DNA from: Mycobacterium sp. E787
Lineage (GTDB): Bacteria > Actinomycetota > Actinomycetes > Mycobacteriales > Mycobacteriaceae
DNA: 64,000 nucleotides
Direction: 5' to 3'
Assembly (NCBI RefSeq): GCF_001668725.1
Contig: NZ_LZKL01000033.1
Span: forward strand, 1 to 64,000
The position numbers and the translations under genes are program-made. Below are positions 55,612-63,408 of the stretch, piece by piece. Under the pieces are notes generated by a model. That model ran no database searches and was not told where the DNA came from. It was given only the letters and a program-made list of their open reading frames with translations. How positions within the stretch are numbered: position 1 is the first letter of the stretch; each line of letters begins with the position of its first letter.

Positions 55612-56403
55612 GTGGGCACGGAGCAACGATGCGACGGGATGGTGGCCCTGGTCACCGGAAGCAGCCGGGGCCTGGGCAAGGCGATCGCGGCGCGGCTTGC
55701 CGCGCGCGGTGCCACGGTGGCGCTGACCGCCCGCACGATGGACCCCGACCCCAAATACCAGGGATCGCTCCGCCAGACCCGCGAAGAGATCGTCGCCGCC
55801 GGTGGCCGGGCGGTCGCCATCCCGGCGGACCTGTCGCACCCCGAGGAACGCGAACGGCTTTTCGGCGAGGTCGTGCGCGCCGTCGGTGCACCGGACATCT
55901 TGGTCAACAACGCCGCGGTCACCTTCCTGCGGCCGCTCGACGGGTTCCCGGAACGGCGGGCCCGGCTGATGATCGAGATGCACGTGCTGGGGCCGCTGCA
56001 CCTGAGCCAGCTGGCGATTCCCGCGATGCGCGAGCGCGGGCGGGGCTGGATCCTGAATCTGACGTCGGTGGGCGGCGACCTGCCGCCCGGACCGCCGTTC
56101 TCCGAATTCGACCGGACCGCGGGCTTCGGGATCTACGGAACCGCCAAGGCCGCGCTCAACCGGCTCACCAAAAGCCTTGCCGCCGAACTGTATGACGACG
56201 GCATCGCCGTCAACGCCGCGGCTCCGTCCAACCCGGTGGCGACGCCGGGGGCCGGCGCCCTGGATCTGGCCAAGACCGACACCGAGGACATCGAACTGAT
56301 CACCGAGACCGCCCTGCGGCTGTGCACCTGCGATCCGAGGACCATGACCGGGCGCATCGCGCACACCCAGTCCTTCCTGGCCGAGGTCGGCCGGGCCGGC
56401 TGA
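55612..56403 (+). CDS. Short-chain dehydrogenase in a lipid-catabolism operon
   Basis: This 263-residue SDR has VALVTGSSRGLGKAIAARLA (about 11-30), a long first loop (MDPDPKYQGSLRQTREEIVA), ILVNNAAVTF (about 97-106), WILNLTSVGGD with the catalytic Ser, and GFGIYGTAKAALNRLTKSLA with Tyr and Lys (about 178-182). GTG 55612 follows GGAGGAGG. The kinase-like gene starts immediately after its stop with no gap. Relatives near APH kinases and acyl-CoA dehydrogenases oxidise 3- or 4-hydroxyacyl intermediates, consistent with the neighbours here. Confidence 0.9.
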   Translation: MGTEQRCDGMVALVTGSSRGLGKAIAARLAARGATVALTARTMDPDPKYQGSLRQTREEIVAAGGRAVAIPADLSHPEERERLFGEVVRAVGAPDILVNNAAVTFLRPLDGFPERRARLMIEMHVLGPLHLSQLAIPAMRERGRGWILNLTSVGGDLPPGPPFSEFDRTAGFGIYGTAKAALNRLTKSLAAELYDDGIAVNAAAPSNPVATPGAGALDLAKTDTEDIELITETALRLCTCDPRTMTGRIAHTQSFLAEVGRAG

Positions 56404-57363
56404 ATGCCCGAGCTCGATCTCGAGGGGCTGCGCCGGCGGCTCGCGGCCGCCGGGGTGGTCGACGTCGCCGCGCTCGCCGGGGGCGCGTCCAGCCTCACGT
56501 TCCGCGGCGCGCGCGACGCCCGGCCGGTGGTGATCAAGGTTGCCCCGCCGGGCGTGGAGCCGGTCGCGCACCGCGACGTGTTGCGCCAGGCCCGGATCAT
56601 GAAAGCGCTTGCCGGGACGCGAGTTCCGGTGCCCGAGGTGGTGTGGCAGGATCCGGGCGACCCGCCCGACACCCCGCCGCTGTTCGTGATGTCCCACGCC
56701 TCAGGACAGTGCGTGGAGCCGCTGTTCGACTGCTGCCCGCCGGCTGCCGGGCTGTTCGAGCGCTACCGCAACGCGTGCCGGGTGATGGCCGCCCTGCACA
56801 GCCTGTCGCCGTCCGAGTTGGGTCTGGCCGGCGAGCCGGTCGTCGATGCGGCCGCCGAGGTCCAGCGCTGGTGCGACACGCTGCGGACCGTGGATGCGGA
56901 GCTGGTGCCGGACTGGCGCGGTGTGCGGGACGCGCTGCTTGCCTGCGCGCCAAGGGCTTTGCGGCCCAGCGTGGTGCACGGTGACTTCCGGCTGGGCAAC
57001 CTGATGGCCGTCGGCGCCAGGATCACCGCCGTGATCGACTGGGAGATCTGGTCGATCGGCGACCCGCGCATCGATCTGGGCTGGTTGCTGATCAACTGCG
57101 ACCCCGAGACGTACCAACGGGTTCCGTCCTCCGCCGGTGTCGCGCCCCCAGCCGGCGAACTGGCCGAGATCTATCAACGCGAATCAGGTTGGGAAGTCAC
57201 CGACTTGGGCTGGTTCGGCGCGCTGGCGTGCTTCAAGTCGGCCGCGACGTGGTCGCTGATCGTCAAGCACAACCGCCGAAGGCGCTCTCCCCGGGCCGAA
57301 TTGGAGGCCATGGCCGCGACGCCGCCGCGGTTGCTGGAGCGGGCGCGGTCGATGCTGGGCTAA
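56404..57363 (+). CDS. APH-fold phosphotransferase (ACAD10/LvaA-type hydroxyacyl kinase candidate)
   Basis: This 319-residue protein has the aminoglycoside-phosphotransferase kinase fold. Landmarks are ALAGGASSLTFRG (nucleotide loop), RPVVIKVAPPG with Lys, HRDVLRQARIMKALAG, the catalytic VVHGDFRLGNLMAVG (Asp at about 194) and the metal site ITAVIDWEIWSIGDPRIDLG. Members next to acyl-CoA dehydrogenases (LvaA in Pseudomonas; the kinase half of human ACAD10/11) phosphorylate 4-hydroxyacyl-CoA. That reading is supported here by the SDR, ACAD and enoyl-CoA hydratase genes nearby. It begins directly after the SDR stop. Confidence 0.85.
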   Translation: MPELDLEGLRRRLAAAGVVDVAALAGGASSLTFRGARDARPVVIKVAPPGVEPVAHRDVLRQARIMKALAGTRVPVPEVVWQDPGDPPDTPPLFVMSHASGQCVEPLFDCCPPAAGLFERYRNACRVMAALHSLSPSELGLAGEPVVDAAAEVQRWCDTLRTVDAELVPDWRGVRDALLACAPRALRPSVVHGDFRLGNLMAVGARITAVIDWEIWSIGDPRIDLGWLLINCDPETYQRVPSSAGVAPPAGELAEIYQRESGWEVTDLGWFGALACFKSAATWSLIVKHNRRRRSPRAELEAMAATPPRLLERARSMLG

Positions 57364-57370
57364 CGGTGGA

Positions 57371-57601
57371 TCAGCGGCACCGCACGAACATGTTTTCGCA
57401 GTACATCCCGGCGCCGCCCCAGGCGAGCGACGGGCCGCCCTCGTCGGCCGGGTCGACGAACAGCGCCGGACTCTCCGTCGTGATCAGATCGACAACCCCG
57501 GGCGCCGGCGGTGAGAAAGGGTCGGGATCGGCGTTGGCCACGGCCGAACTGGCGGCGAGAGCCATCGCGCTCATCGCGCCGGCCACCAAAACCCGCTTCA
57601 T
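57371..57601 (-). CDS. Small secreted protein
   Basis: This 76-residue protein has a clear signal peptide (MKRVLVAGAMSAMALAASSA, cleavage near ANA-DPD). A short acidic mature part rich in Pro and Asp follows, with two Cys near the end (MYCENMFVRCR). ATG 57601 is preferred; the frame extends to 57682 without signal-like sequence. It converges on the kinase gene and is divergent from the porin. Function unknown; the mature protein would be only about 52 residues. Confidence 0.75.
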   Translation of the reverse strand: MKRVLVAGAMSAMALAASSAVANADPDPFSPPAPGVVDLITTESPALFVDPADEGGPSLAWGGAGMYCENMFVRCR

Positions 57602-57772
57602 TCCCGCCCTCTCTGTCGCCCGCCTATTGTAGCCCCCTGGCAAACAAACCGATACAGGATCGGCGCAACGTTCCGGGGCCATATCGCGGATGTGTTACGA
57701 ACGCACAACGACTTCGACCGGTTGCCCAGCAAATTCCCTGACGCGTTTCGCGCCGCGCCTACGGTGTCGCGC

Positions 57773-58471
57773 GTGGGGCCGGTAACCGTGGTCGTTCGCC
57801 GCGCCGCGGTTATCGCGGTTTGTCTGTTCGTGGCCGTGGCCGCGGCGCCGTCGACAAGCGCGGATCCCGACGTCGACCCCGCCGCCGTAACAGTGCCCGC
57901 GCCGGACGGTGGCGTGCCCTCGAACGCGCCGGCAATCCTCAAGACCCCGGACGGCTGGACCCTGGGCCTCGGCGCCAAGGACGAGTCGCAGATTCCGGTG
58001 GCGCCGCTGACCACCGCCGTCTCGTCCCGTGAATACCTGGCGAGCGGGACGTTCGTCGGCTCGCTCATAGGGCCTGAGCAGCCGCGGGGCACCCTCGAGG
58101 TGGGTTACGAGATCGGCTGCGGGATCGACATGAGCACTTCCAACGGCGTCACGATGGGCGGGAGTGCAGGCGTCACCCCGGGTCTTGGCCTGGCGGGCGC
58201 GTTCACCGGCGTGGTGACCCCCGTGCCGTTGATCACGGTTCCTGTCAACGGTGTGATCACCGTGGGCCTCAAGCCGGGGCTCGTGATCGTGGTGCCGGTG
58301 GTCAAGAAGCAGTTCAAGGGGCCGAGTCCCTGGGTGATGGTCAGCAACTTCCACGTCAAGATCGACGGCTGCGTGGGGCAGTCGTTCATCCGCTCCTACG
58401 CGACGCTGACCCGGGAGACCGATCAATCCGACGTGGTGCTGTCCTACGTCGGCGTCACCAAAGCCGTCTAA
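57773..58471 (+). CDS. MspA-family outer-membrane porin
   Basis: This 232-residue protein has a signal peptide (VVVRRAAVIAVCLFVAVAAA, cleavage near TSA-DPD) and a mature domain matching MspA porins. Landmarks are TPDGWTLGLGAKDESQIPVA, PLTTAVSSREYLASGTFVGS, RGTLEVGYEIGCGIDMSTSN, VGLKPGLVIVVPVVKKQFKG, and a C-terminal FHVKIDGCVGQSFIRSYATL. These form octameric hydrophilic channels in fast-growing mycobacteria. Two Cys in the mature part (GCGID, DGCVG) are unlike M. smegmatis MspA as I recall it. GTG 57773 is the likely start; a frame opening at 57692 has a poor lead. It overlaps the end of the convergent ACAD gene. Confidence 0.88.
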   Translation: MGPVTVVVRRAAVIAVCLFVAVAAAPSTSADPDVDPAAVTVPAPDGGVPSNAPAILKTPDGWTLGLGAKDESQIPVAPLTTAVSSREYLASGTFVGSLIGPEQPRGTLEVGYEIGCGIDMSTSNGVTMGGSAGVTPGLGLAGAFTGVVTPVPLITVPVNGVITVGLKPGLVIVVPVVKKQFKGPSPWVMVSNFHVKIDGCVGQSFIRSYATLTRETDQSDVVLSYVGVTKAV

Positions 58472-59817
58472 GGCCGATGGTGGCGACCCGCTTCGCCCGG
58501 CTCCGCCGCGCTAGCCATCGCCACGCCGCGGGGTATGCCCGCCAGCCGGTCGGCGAACTTCGCCTCGGCGGCCGCGCGCAGGCGCAGCAGGTGTTCGGAG
58601 GGAAACAGATCGGGCGCGGGTGAGCGGTCCTTGAGCAGGAGCCGGGCCAGCGTCACCTTGTGCACCTCGGTGGGACCGTCGGCCAGGCCGAGCACGAACG
58701 ACTCCACCAGGTACTGCACGAACGGCATCTCGTGGGTGGTGCCCAGTGACCCGTGCAGCTGGAGCGCCCGCGCCGACACGTCGTGCAACACCTTCTGCAT
58801 CATCGCCTTGACCGCCGAAATGTCCGCCCGCACCGCGTGATAGTCGTTGAATTGGTCGATCTTCCAAGCGGTTTGCAGCGTCAGCAGCCGGAAGGCCTCG
58901 ATCTCCATCCACGAGTCGGCGACCATCTCCTGGACCAGTTGCTTGTTGGCCAGGACCTCGCCCTGGGTGTAGCGTGACACCGCCCGCTCGCAGATCATGT
59001 CGAAGATGCGGCGGACCAGGCCCACCGTGCGCATCGCGTGGTGAATTCGCCCGCCGCCCAGGCGGGTTTGGGCGACGGCGAACGCCCCGCCGCGCGGGCC
59101 CAGCATGTGGTCGGCGGGCACCCGCACGTTCTCGTAACGGACGTACCCCTCGCGACCGCCGCCCGGCGGCTGATACCCCAACCCGACATCGCGCAGCACG
59201 TTGATGCCCGGGGTGCCGCCCGGTACGACGAACATCGAATAGCGTTGATATGGCGGCGCTTCGGGGTCGGTCATGGCCATCACGATGAGGAAAGAAGCCA
59301 TCGAGGCGAACGAGGAAAACCACTTCTCCCCGTTGATGATCCAGTGATCGCCGTCGGGCACCGCGGTGGTGCGGAACACCTTGGGGTCCGCGCCGCCCTG
59401 CGGCTCGGTCATCGAGAAGCAGGACACGATGCGGTTGTCCAGCAACGGCTCGAGGTAGCGCGCCTTGAGCTCGGGAGTGCCGTAATGCGCGAGGATCTCG
59501 CTGTTGCCCGAATCGGGGGCCTGCGAACCGAAGACGATGGGCGCACATTCCGAACGGCCCAGGATCTCGTTGAGCAGAGCGAGTTTCACCTGGCCGTAGC
59601 CCGGGCCGCCCAGGTGCGGCCCGAGGTGGGTGGCCCACAGGCCGCGCTCCTTGACGATCTCCTGCAGCGGCGGGATCAGGGCCTGCCGCACCGGATCGCT
59701 GAGGTCGTGGGATTCCTTGACGATCAGGTCGATCGGCTCGCACTCGTTGCGCACAAACTCCTCGACCCATTTCAGTTGTTCGGCCCACTGCGGCTCGGTG
59801 GAGAAGTCCCACGACAT
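58468..59817 (-). CDS. Acyl-CoA dehydrogenase (ACAD10/11-like)
   Basis: This 449-residue flavoenzyme belongs to the longer ACAD group found with APH kinases. Landmarks are RGLWATHLGPHLGGPGYGQV (about 58-77), FGSQAPDSGNSEILAHYGTP, SCFSMTEPQGGADPKVFRTT (FAD-binding, about 132-151), INGEKWFSSFASMASFLIVM, QLHGSLGTTHEMPFVQYLVE and LGLADGPTEVHKVTLARLLL near 380. Relatives remove phosphate from 4-phosphoacyl-CoA to give an enoyl-CoA. The gene runs opposite to the kinase but is only about 1.1 kb from it. The enoyl-CoA hydratase lies 18 bases upstream on the same strand and forms an operon with it. Confidence 0.9.
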   Translation of the reverse strand: MSWDFSTEPQWAEQLKWVEEFVRNECEPIDLIVKESHDLSDPVRQALIPPLQEIVKERGLWATHLGPHLGGPGYGQVKLALLNEILGRSECAPIVFGSQAPDSGNSEILAHYGTPELKARYLEPLLDNRIVSCFSMTEPQGGADPKVFRTTAVPDGDHWIINGEKWFSSFASMASFLIVMAMTDPEAPPYQRYSMFVVPGGTPGINVLRDVGLGYQPPGGGREGYVRYENVRVPADHMLGPRGGAFAVAQTRLGGGRIHHAMRTVGLVRRIFDMICERAVSRYTQGEVLANKQLVQEMVADSWMEIEAFRLLTLQTAWKIDQFNDYHAVRADISAVKAMMQKVLHDVSARALQLHGSLGTTHEMPFVQYLVESFVLGLADGPTEVHKVTLARLLLKDRSPAPDLFPSEHLLRLRAAAEAKFADRLAGIPRGVAMASAAEPGEAGRHHRP

Positions 59818-59835
59818 CCGTTGTCCCTTCTCGGG

Positions 59836-60609
59836 TCATTGCCACTTTTTGCGGCGCTCGGCCGCGTCCTCGGTCGCATGCGCGATCACCTGGTTGCGGT
59901 TCTCCAGTTCCAGCGCCGCCGGCAGGCTCGCCGCGTCGGTGTTCACCTGCAGCGCGCGCTTCGTCAGTTGCACGCCGAGCGGCGCCAGGCCGGCGATCAG
60001 CGACGCCAACTCGACGGCGCGATCGACCAACCGATCGGGCCCGACGACCTCGCTGACCAGCCCCCGCCGCTCGGCCTCGCCGGCCGAGACCGTGCGCCCG
60101 GTGAGCATCCAGTCGGCCGCGACGCTGGTGCCGACGATGCGGGGCAGGTGATAGCTCATGCCCATCTCGGCGCCCGACAGCCCGAGCAGGATGGCGGCGT
60201 TGCCGAACGAGGCTTGCGCCGAACAGATTCGGATGTCGGCGGCGAGGCACAGCGCGAAACCCGCCCCGACGCAGGGGCCGTTGACCGCGGCGATGACGGG
60301 CTGCGGCACCTCGCGGACGCGTTGGGCGAGCGCGGCCATGCTCTCCTGGAAGCGCATGCGGTCCAGCGCCGGCGCCGTCGCCTCGGGCACGTCGGGCCCG
60401 AAGTCGCGCATGTCGATGCCGGCGCAAAAGCCGCGACCGGCTCCGGTGAGCACGATGGCACGCGTCGACCGGTCGGCCCCCAAATCGGCCAGGGCCGCGG
60501 CCAATTCGGCTTGCATGGCCGCGTTGATGGCGTTGAGCCGCTCCGGACGGCTCAGGCGCACGACGACGACGCCGTCGGCGGGCCGGTCGAGTTCCAGCGT
60601 GTGGGACAC
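59836..60609 (-). CDS. Enoyl-CoA hydratase/isomerase
   Basis: This 257-residue crotonase-fold protein has VVRLSRPERLNAINAAMQAE, the oxyanion segment LTGAGRGFCAGIDMRDFGPD (about 60-79), VIAAVNGPCVGAGFALCLAA (about 110-129) and FGNAAILLGLSGAEMGMSYH. Catalytic Glu positions of hydratases are not both evident (GLSGAEMG keeps one acidic residue), so isomerase or other crotonase chemistry is possible. GTG 60609 is used; the frame stays open to 60735. It precedes the ACAD gene by 18 bases and could hydrate the enoyl-CoA that the ACAD makes. Confidence 0.88.
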   Translation of the reverse strand: MSHTLELDRPADGVVVVRLSRPERLNAINAAMQAELAAALADLGADRSTRAIVLTGAGRGFCAGIDMRDFGPDVPEATAPALDRMRFQESMAALAQRVREVPQPVIAAVNGPCVGAGFALCLAADIRICSAQASFGNAAILLGLSGAEMGMSYHLPRIVGTSVAADWMLTGRTVSAGEAERRGLVSEVVGPDRLVDRAVELASLIAGLAPLGVQLTKRALQVNTDAASLPAALELENRNQVIAHATEDAAERRKKWQ

Positions 60610-60774: not shown

Positions 60775-63408
60775 TCAGCTGCGCGGCTGAGCTTCAGCTT
60801 CGGCGTCGCCGTAGAAGCCCACCCGAAGCAGGGCGGTGATCTCGCTGACCAAGGGCATCCGCGGATTTGTGCGGTTGCTGAGATCCTCGAATGCCGTCAT
60901 CGCCAACGCGGGCAGCGCCGCAAGGAATTGTTCCTCCTCGACGCCGTACTCCCGCAGCGATCGCGGCATGTCCAGTCGCTTCAGCAGATCGTCAACTCCG
61001 TGGAACAACCGGCCGCGGCATTCGTCGGGCTCATGCCCGCCGAAGATCAGTTGGCCGAGCTGCGCGTATTTGTCCGGCGCCACGTAGGCGGAATATCCCG
61101 GGGCGGGCATGAACTTGCTTGGCAGACTTGCGTTGTAGCGCAGCACATGCGGCAGGAAGATGCCGTTGGCTCGGCCATGCGAGATCCCGAATCTCGCGCC
61201 GACGGCATGGGCGAGCGCATGGTTCGTCCCGACGAACGCATTCGAAAAGGCAAGCCCGGCAAGGGTTGCCGCGTTGGACATGTCGGTTCGCGCGGATAGC
61301 TCGCCGGGGTCATCGTAGGCCCTGGGCAACGCGTCGAAGATCAATCGTGCCGCTTGGGCGCACAGCGCGTCCGTGTACGGCGACGCGAAGATCGAAACGA
61401 TCGCTTCCAGAGCGTGGGTGAGCGCGTCGATGCCGGTGTCGGCGGTCAGTTTCGGTGGCATGGACGAGGTCAGGACGGGGTCGACGATCGCGAGGTCAGG
61501 CACCAGGCTGTAGTCGACCAGCGTTTCCTTCTTCCCGCGCACCGTCAGCACCGCCGCCGGCGAGACTTCGGAACCGGTCCCCGACGTCGTCGGAATAGCG
61601 ACCAATTGGACGCGATGGCGGTCGGTCGGATAGTCGGCCACGCGCTTGCGCGGGTCGAGGAACGGCATCGTCAACTCGTCGAGGCTCTTCTCCGGGTGTT
61701 CGTAGAACAGCCGGATCGCCTTGCCGGCATCCAGCACCGAGCCGCCGCCGACGGCGAGCAGCAGATCGGGTTGGACCCGCTGCAGCAGCGCGACGCCACG
61801 GCGGATGGTCGCCTCGTCGGGCTCCGGTGTCACCTCGCTGAACACCTGCACGTGTTGGGTGCGTAACTTGCCTCGCAACTGGTCGACCACGCCGCGCTCA
61901 TCGGTCAGGGCATCGGTGATCACCACGACGATTTCGCAGTCGAGTTCGCGCAGGTTGTCCAGTGCGCCTTCGTTGAAGTAGGTGTTGGAGGGGACGCGGA
62001 ACCATTGCGGCGGGGTGCGGCGCCGCGAGACGGTCTTGATGTTCAGCAGTTGGCGGTAGTTGACGTTCTCCGTCGTGCTCGACCCGCCCCAGGTGCCGCA
62101 ACCCAACGAGAACGTGGGTGTGAGGTTGTTGTAGACCCCGCCGAGGGCTCCGACGGCGGTGGGCGCGTTGACCAGGATGCGCCCGGTGCGAACCGCCAGA
62201 CCGTATGCCTCGATGACGTCCTCGTCGCTGGCGTACACCGCCGAGGTGTGACCGAGCCCCCCATGCTCGGTGACCAGGACGGCCACGTCGATGGCGTGCT
62301 GGACGCCTCTTGCGCGCACCACCCCGAGCACCGGCATCAGCTTCTCGGCCAACAGGGGGTGGGAGGCGAGTTCGTCCAGGTCGGCGGGAAGCTGTGCCAG
62401 CAGCACTTTGACGGTCGGTGACACGCTGAAGTCGGCTCGGGCGGCCAGCTCCGAAGCCTTCTTCCCGACCGCCTCGAGCGAGATCTTATCGCCGCACCCG
62501 AACGCGAACTCCGCCACCGCGTCGGCCTCGGCGGGCGTGAGCAGTTGGGCGCCCATCCGCTCGAACTCGGCCATCACCTCGTCGTATATCTCGTCGTCGA
62601 TGATGCAGGTTTGCTCGGCCGGGCAAATAACGGACGAGTCAAAGGTTTTCGAGATCAGGATGTCAACGACCGCGCCCTTCAGGTCCGCGGTCTTGTGAAC
62701 GTAGATCGGCGCGTTGCCCGGACCGACGGACAGACCCGGCTTTCCGGCCGAATTCGCCAGCGCCACGATCTTCGGTCCGCCCGTGACCCAGATGAAGTCG
62801 ACCTCGGGATGCTTGAACAGGTAGTGCGTCACCTCGTGCGCGGCGTCCGGAATGACCTGCAGCGCTCCGGGCGGCATCCCGGCCGCTTCGGCCGCCGGGC
62901 GGAGGACTTCCAGGCTGCGTTCGCAACAGCGCACCGCATACGGTGACGGCCGAAAAAGGATCGCGTTGCGCGTCTTGGCGGCCACGATCGCCTTGAACAG
63001 CACCGTCGAGGTCGGATTGGTCACGGGGGTGATGCCCAGCACGACCCCGATCGGCTCGGCCACATAGGCGATGTTGTGTTCGACGTCCTCGTCGATGACA
63101 CCAACGGATTTCTTGCCACGCAGGTAGTCGTGCAGGAACTCGGTGGCGACATAGTTCTTGACGACCTTGTCCTCGAAGACACCGAAGCCCGTCTCCTCGA
63201 TCGCCACGCTGGCCAATTCGCCCGCCGCGCGGACCCCGGCGCGCACCATCGCCTCGACGATCGCGTCGACCTGCTCCTGGTCGAGCCTGCGGAATGCCCG
63301 GGCCGCCTCGGCCGCCACGTCGACGATCGCGTCGACCTCGCGTCTGCGCTCTTCGGCAAGCGCGGGTGCTTCGAGACCGGAGGCGGGCTGGCTTTGCGTA
63401 GTGGTCAT
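60775..63408 (-). CDS. adhE: Bifunctional acetaldehyde-CoA/alcohol dehydrogenase
   Basis: This 877-residue fusion reduces acetyl-CoA to acetaldehyde and then ethanol, or works in reverse. The N-terminal half is a CoA-acylating aldehyde dehydrogenase: GVVLGITPVTNPTSTVLFKA, AGKPGLSVGPGNAPIYVHKT and catalytic Cys in TFDSSVICPAEQTCIIDDEI (about 261). The C-terminal half is an iron-dependent alcohol dehydrogenase: PDLLLAVGGGSVLDAGKAIR, VAIPTTSGTGSEVSPAAVLT, and metal His residues in GTNHALAHAVGARFGISHGR. AdhE forms filaments in other bacteria. It is uncommon in aerobic mycobacteria and suggests fermentative redox balance or ethanol use. A palindrome lies upstream at 63430. Confidence 0.95.
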   Translation of the reverse strand: MTTTQSQPASGLEAPALAEERRREVDAIVDVAAEAARAFRRLDQEQVDAIVEAMVRAGVRAAGELASVAIEETGFGVFEDKVVKNYVATEFLHDYLRGKKSVGVIDEDVEHNIAYVAEPIGVVLGITPVTNPTSTVLFKAIVAAKTRNAILFRPSPYAVRCCERSLEVLRPAAEAAGMPPGALQVIPDAAHEVTHYLFKHPEVDFIWVTGGPKIVALANSAGKPGLSVGPGNAPIYVHKTADLKGAVVDILISKTFDSSVICPAEQTCIIDDEIYDEVMAEFERMGAQLLTPAEADAVAEFAFGCGDKISLEAVGKKASELAARADFSVSPTVKVLLAQLPADLDELASHPLLAEKLMPVLGVVRARGVQHAIDVAVLVTEHGGLGHTSAVYASDEDVIEAYGLAVRTGRILVNAPTAVGALGGVYNNLTPTFSLGCGTWGGSSTTENVNYRQLLNIKTVSRRRTPPQWFRVPSNTYFNEGALDNLRELDCEIVVVITDALTDERGVVDQLRGKLRTQHVQVFSEVTPEPDEATIRRGVALLQRVQPDLLLAVGGGSVLDAGKAIRLFYEHPEKSLDELTMPFLDPRKRVADYPTDRHRVQLVAIPTTSGTGSEVSPAAVLTVRGKKETLVDYSLVPDLAIVDPVLTSSMPPKLTADTGIDALTHALEAIVSIFASPYTDALCAQAARLIFDALPRAYDDPGELSARTDMSNAATLAGLAFSNAFVGTNHALAHAVGARFGISHGRANGIFLPHVLRYNASLPSKFMPAPGYSAYVAPDKYAQLGQLIFGGHEPDECRGRLFHGVDDLLKRLDMPRSLREYGVEEEQFLAALPALAMTAFEDLSNRTNPRMPLVSEITALLRVGFYGDAEAEAQPRS

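Follow-up and report, generated by a model that had tools for sequence, protein, structure and literature searches.

The genome of Mycobacterium sp. E787 (5.7 Mb, GCF_001668725.1) carries, on contig C33 (NZ_LZKL01000033.1), an SDR family oxidoreductase (P0001), an APH-fold kinase (P0002), an acyl-CoA dehydrogenase (ACAD, P0003) and an enoyl-CoA hydratase or crotonase (P0004), raising the question of whether these genes jointly process hydroxylated acyl-CoAs through a phosphorylated intermediate; 4-hydroxy acids derived from levulinate, lactones or lipid peroxidation have been suggested as conceivable substrates. In ACAD10/11, a 4-hydroxyacyl-CoA receives a phosphate on its 4-hydroxyl from the kinase domain; the ACAD domain then removes this phosphate, leaving 2-enoyl-CoA (PMC12440821; PMC11342911). 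Literature searches for mycobacterial ACAD10/11-type genes gave no paper. The stretch analysed, referred to as the window, comprises 64,000 nt, and the named species nearest to it by kinase are Mycobacterium terramassiliense, M. sp. E3198, M. interjectum and M. montefiorense.

Organization and conservation of the locus

As reported in the initial annotation, the SDR and kinase genes directly adjoin each other and are faced at about 1.1 kb by a second pair formed by the ACAD and crotonase genes ( Table 1 ). No base separates the SDR stop codon from the kinase start codon (TGA-ATG), and the ACAD and crotonase genes, both on the minus strand, are 18 bp apart. The gap between kinase and ACAD, on whose content that annotation made no mention, is occupied by an MspA-type porin gene overlapping the 3' end of the ACAD gene by 4 bp. 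The abutting of the first pair and the short spacing of the second make two transcription units likely, and the crotonase is probably co-transcribed with the ACAD. The porin gene is wedged between kinase and ACAD in the close relatives of the window and is missing from the gap in M. interjectum and several others. Since the ends of the kinase and ACAD genes are 31 bp apart in M. interjectum and overlap by 3-4 bp in many other relatives, the porin is not a core part of the locus. Elsewhere among relatives the SDR adjoins the kinase, or the ACAD where the kinase is missing, and the crotonase neighbours the ACAD in many of them.

Table 1. Coordinates of genes and sequence motifs of the locus within the window.
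Feature	Position	Strand	Remarks
SDR family oxidoreductase P0001, 263 aa	55612-56403	+	adh_short E 2.7e-36
APH-fold kinase P0002, 319 aa, 'RDVLRQ' clade	56404-57363	+	PF01636 E 1.4e-32
Kinase beta-3 strand VIKVAPPG	56530-56553	+	Lys45 (Arg in ACAD11 kinase)
Kinase alphaC motif HRDVLRQ	56569-56589	+	Gln62 replacing canonical Glu
Kinase motif AAAEVQRW	56848-56871	+	Ala151 at ACAD11 R176 position, followed by invariant Glu152
Kinase catalytic loop HGDFRLGN	56977-57000	+	
MspA-type porin gene, 259 aa	57692-58471	+	PF09203 E 3.3e-47; outside core pair
ACAD10/11-type acyl-CoA dehydrogenase P0003, 449 aa	58468-59817	-	N, M and C domains
ACAD Asp380	58678-58680	-	equivalent of catalytic D753, mouse ACAD11
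ACAD motif RLGGGRIHHAMR	59029-59064	-	equivalents of mouse ACAD11 R626, R631, H634, R637
Enoyl-CoA hydratase (crotonase) P0004	59836-60609	-	ECH_1 E 6.7e-53

The dN/dS ratio is lowest in the ACAD (0.05-0.08), intermediate in the SDR (0.11-0.21) and highest in the kinase (0.23-0.36). All genes are under purifying selection and functional, the kinase being the freest to change. Recurrence in relatives, taken together with this selection, demonstrates that the gene arrangement is not the product of chance. In M. lepraemurium (L149) the locus is decaying, with stop codons in the crotonase, a broken SDR and a change of DWE to DWK in the kinase. An AdhE-like bifunctional aldehyde/alcohol dehydrogenase also occurs in the window (60775-63408; 1065 bits for a cut-off of 951) and was left out as a pathway member, being present in just 22 of 148 genus genomes.

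The acyl-CoA dehydrogenase and its linkage to the kinase

All five active-site residues of mouse ACAD11 (R626, R631, H634, R637 and D753, the latter a catalytic Asp replacing Glu) have equivalents in P0003, and the three that bind phosphate (R626, H634 and R637) are all contained in the motif RLGGGRIHHAMR. In ACAD11, residues R626, H634, R637 and D753 are needed for or implicated in phosphate elimination (PMC12440821). The same five-residue set is found in three P0003 paralogues of the genome and is lacking in seven ordinary ACADs, which have Glu or Gly where P0003 has its Asp. Where the mammalian enzymes have the HCMR motif, P0003 reads HAMR, as does 4hr3; this Ala for Cys is the sole departure of P0003 from the ACAD10/11 active site, and the Cys is absent from the listed phosphate-contacting residues (PMC12440821).

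The best PDB matches of P0003 are 4hr3 (E 2e-71), followed by mouse and human ACAD11 (range E 2e-71 to 3e-64). In phylogenetic trees, for which mouse ACAD11 and 3dxp served as references standing in for LvaA/LvaC, P0003 is placed in the ACAD10/11-type clade that includes mouse ACAD11 (support 100/96), within a subclade sister to the ACAD11-containing one. By its residues and clade, P0003 is assigned to the ACAD10/11/LvaC type, and phosphate elimination is its predicted activity. It thus shares both clade and active site with mammalian ACAD10/ACAD11 (8v3u, 8v3v, 2wbi), whereas in the latter kinase and ACAD form one fused protein and at this locus they are encoded by separate genes.

In a sample of 149 genomes of the genus, the window's own included, the ACAD orthologue (identity of 87% or more) occurs in about 67 and the kinase orthologue in 47, all 47 being nested within the ACAD-bearing set (hypergeometric 4e-23, a statistic that ignores shared ancestry). 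Kinase and ACAD are neighbours in each of the 10 kinase-bearing relatives annotated gene by gene. Among 80 Actinomycetota kinase loci, an ACAD10/11-type gene is located within 7 kb in 62 (48 convergent, 13 on the same strand and 1 divergent), a count that does not include the genes of L149 and L185, missed by the pattern used, and to which two contigs that end too early to show the ACAD could not contribute; the chance expectation, given about four ACAD10/11-type genes per genome, is approximately 1 locus in 100. Also, about half of the loci with kinases less than 50% identical keep the ACAD link. Kinase and ACAD distances co-vary in a mirror-tree comparison (r = 0.91, reached in 0 of 2000 permutations, and again r = 0.91 with 24 representatives), a value that shared ancestry alone could partly give. 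Kinase, ACAD, SDR and CoA ligase genes occur together on plasmids of Rhodococcus and Streptomyces, and P450 genes are also present with the kinase-ACAD cluster on plasmids of Streptomyces and Massilia. Kinase and ACAD are therefore a linked pair.

These patterns bear on the alternative of a chance neighbourhood of an ordinary beta-oxidation ACAD and crotonase with an unrelated APH-family kinase. Such genes are numerous in mycobacteria (56 ACAD and 23 APH matches in this genome), and the opposite strands and intervening porin would fit a fortuitous encounter, but the ACAD active site is not ordinary, the linkage persists in about three quarters of the kinase loci, across several actinobacterial families and with changing orientation, and the nesting in the genus sample is perfect, so that this explanation is largely refuted and highly improbable.

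Elsewhere in the genome (G000:C120:41404-43001), an APH kinase adjoins an ordinary-type ACAD with Glu and without the phosphate-binding set; for this reason, kinase-ACAD adjacency alone is no proof of ACAD10/11 chemistry.

A divergent clade of APH-fold kinases

P0002 retains the catalytic Asp, the Asn and the metal-binding Asp of the APH fold (D194, N199 and D212), and has in common with ACAD10/ACAD11 the kinase fold and superfamily and the HGDxxxxN and DWE motifs. It differs from ACAD11, 3dxp and 9o56, and also from the genome's own canonical kinases, at the beta-3, alphaC and R176 positions, where it has Lys, Gln and no Arg, respectively. In a model of ACAD11, the Arg at position 176 contacts CoA. 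Throughout 80 clade loci the beta-3 Lys and the Glu152-type Glu are invariant, the alphaC Gln is found in 79 and the R176 position is taken by small or acidic residues, never by Arg; as these loci were picked by similarity to P0002, the residue pattern is a clade signature and not independent functional evidence.

A profile of the P0002 clade recovers 9o56, 3dxp and the ACAD11 kinase domain with E values between 4e-30 and 3e-24, whereas resistance APHs reach no better than 1e-7, and the curated APH(3') model scores 29 bits on P0002 versus a cut-off of 205. A role as drug-modifying aminoglycoside/macrolide phosphotransferase was rejected on these grounds, with resistance enzymes ranking far below ACAD11 and 3dxp and the APH(3') cut-off failed. 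The AlphaFold2 model of P0002 (pLDDT 90) ranks 3dxp, the 25-hydroxysteroid kinase (9fsg, 9ft5) and Rv3168 as its nearest folds. In the tree, the P0002 clade is separate from that of ACAD11, 3dxp and C125 (support 100/98).

Neither of the placements that the initial annotation had named as fatal to its proposal was found: the ACAD groups in the ACAD10/11 clade and not with ordinary FadE proteins, and the kinase is nearer to the ACAD11 domain, 3dxp and 9o56 than to drug-modifying APHs. Of the tree placement suggested there, with ACAD11 as reference, the ACAD half holds and the kinase falls outside the ACAD11 kinase clade. The underlying claim, that kinase and ACAD act via a phosphorylated intermediate, is supported by the residues and clade of the ACAD and by the strong coupling of both genes, and is weakened by a kinase from a separate clade, devoid of the alphaC Glu and the CoA-contacting Arg. 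Loss of these two residues means that P0002 may not use a CoA ester.

We tentatively propose, at somewhat less than even confidence, that the 'RDVLRQ' kinases constitute an undescribed subfamily of the ACAD10/11-kinase line, in which a Lys-Gln pair stands where the salt bridge is normally formed and the substrate site is altered, and which would partner HAMR-type ACADs in dehydrating hydroxylated acyl-CoA, possibly not 4-hydroxy, within Actinomycetota catabolic clusters.

Candidate substrates and proposed route

In about 20 genus genomes the ACAD and SDR are retained, usually with the crotonase, and the P0002 orthologue is absent. The kinase-less cluster, a conserved catabolic one in many mycobacteria (L103-L112), contains two further ACADs together with two amidohydrolase genes and genes for P450, luciferase-like, sulfotransferase, DUF1214, Rieske and hydrolase proteins. 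The cluster's amidohydrolase is found elsewhere in the window's genome, and the pathway may therefore simply be scattered. Kinase-less genomes hold other APH kinases, one of them adjoining another ACAD10/11-type gene in the same region. Retention of the ACAD without P0002 implies that it is there served by another kinase or is able to act alone. At a distance of about 40 kb, another ACAD-linked kinase occurs in 19 of 20 genomes without P0002 versus 10 of 47 with it (Fisher p 1e-8); a claim of mutual replacement was dropped, as the remaining genomes hold a C58-type kinase and the split may follow lineages.

The persistence of the ACAD in these kinase-less genomes would also suit an enzyme that, despite its ACAD10/11 active site, acts on a polar acyl-CoA by a reductive or an ordinary dehydrogenation, the kinase being a regulator or salvage enzyme. 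This reading is very doubtful, given that all residues shown to serve phosphate elimination are kept and that the genomes in question carry other kinases of the same superfamily.

The P450, luciferase-like, Rieske and amidohydrolase neighbours suggest a larger hydroxylated or cyclic compound as substrate. Alternatively, P0002 could act on a non-CoA alcohol (tertiary or side-chain, sterol or terpenoid), the phosphate being later removed by the ACAD or another enzyme. The model for this is the 25-hydroxysteroid kinase of Sterolibacterium denitrificans (9fsg, 9ft5), which has an APH-like fold, is second-best in the fold ranking and phosphorylates an alcohol so that the phosphate can leave; the loss of the CoA-contacting Arg and the association of the ACAD with P450, luciferase-like and Rieske genes in relatives agree with it. 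However, P0002 is closer in sequence to ACAD11 and 3dxp than to this kinase, which uses a free steroid alcohol and has no known lyase gene nearby (PMC8449060), and P0002 co-evolves tightly with a CoA-type dehydrogenase; we regard this possibility as rather unlikely. A further APH-type kinase of the genome (G000:C120:68779-69672) has a LLWGDARVGN sequence resembling the printed catalytic loop of the 25-hydroxysteroid kinase and is a possible steroid-alcohol kinase.

A bacterial precedent is levulinate catabolism. In P. putida, as summarised in PMC6692424, the steps are activation of the substrate (LvaE), ketone reduction (LvaD), phosphorylation (LvaA with LvaB) and elimination plus hydration (LvaC); the same summary describes a P. 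citronellolis lva cluster with kinase, histidine phosphatase, ACAD and SDR. The window locus has the same three protein classes as Pseudomonas putida LvaA/LvaC/LvaD (kinase, ACAD and SDR), and by published description LvaC shares the ACAD10/11 active site (PMC12440821). These likenesses could reflect an lva-type route for levulinate or 4-hydroxyvalerate working exactly as in that organism, with P0002 as LvaA, P0003 as LvaC and P0001 as LvaD, but this is quite improbable. The locus has two facing transcription units, unlike the P. putida system, and none of LvaB, LvaE or LvaR was identified among the genes around it; the kinase, moreover, belongs to another clade than the canonical ACAD11/3dxp kinases, with changed residues. 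The SDR has the Ser/Tyr/Lys catalytic pattern (NLTSVGG 149, YGTAK 175), yet a search of family models gave no specific family match, and its identity to the SDRs encoded at the operonic kinase-ACAD loci used for comparison is just 31-34%; it is an unspecific SDR that cannot be tied to LvaD.

A more lva-like locus, judging from gene content, is that of contig C58 (L095 5036-12270), where kinase, SDR, ACAD (HAMR), TetR and quinone oxidoreductase genes form an operon and those for a histidine phosphatase and another APH kinase run divergently from it, an arrangement that recalls the P. citronellolis cluster. At the alphaC and R176 positions the kinase of the C58 operon is canonical, with Glu and Arg. 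Should the strain degrade levulinate, C58 would, on the same grounds of gene content, be the better candidate, and the real substrate of the window locus is probably not levulinate. The C58 locus and those of R. rhodochrous pGD02.2.1 and Streptomyces sp. NBC_00080 resemble the window locus in having an ACAD of the same HAMR subclade with a kinase and an SDR beside it. In Rhodococcus and Streptomyces the kinase also belongs to the clade of P0002, whereas the SDRs of all three loci are only about 32-34% identical to P0001.

The reading we favour, and consider fairly probable, is that the genes form a module for the phospho-dehydration of a hydroxylated acyl-CoA, in a divergent version of the chemistry known from LvaA/LvaC and ACAD10/11. 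P0002 would move phosphate from ATP onto a hydroxyl of the acyl-CoA; P0003 would hold the phosphate by its Arg/His/Arg set and use FAD and the catalytic Asp to expel it, giving the enoyl-CoA; P0004 would hydrate the latter, and the SDR would carry out an alcohol/ketone step, before or after. The gene identities, the active-site residues of the ACAD, the clade placements and the conserved kinase-ACAD linkage are direct observations, while the reaction itself, the CoA-ester substrate, a C4 position of the hydroxyl, the sequence of steps and the part played by the SDR are inferred. Counting against the module are the opposite strands of kinase and ACAD and the porin between them in the window genome, the phosphorylation of a non-CoA alcohol by the 25-hydroxysteroid kinase of related fold (PMC8449060), the roughly 20 relatives with ACAD and SDR but without kinase, and the lost alphaC Glu and CoA-contacting Arg.

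Without such an analysis, P0002-type kinases would be labelled aminoglycoside phosphotransferases, and their genes could be taken for resistance determinants. The locus offers two small, defined partner proteins with which to test what hydroxyl groups phospho-elimination can remove. It is only recently that genes were linked to this route for hydroxyacyl-CoAs (LvaA/LvaC; ACAD10/11), and the present results point to actinobacteria holding several parallel versions of it, including one whose kinase is clearly different.
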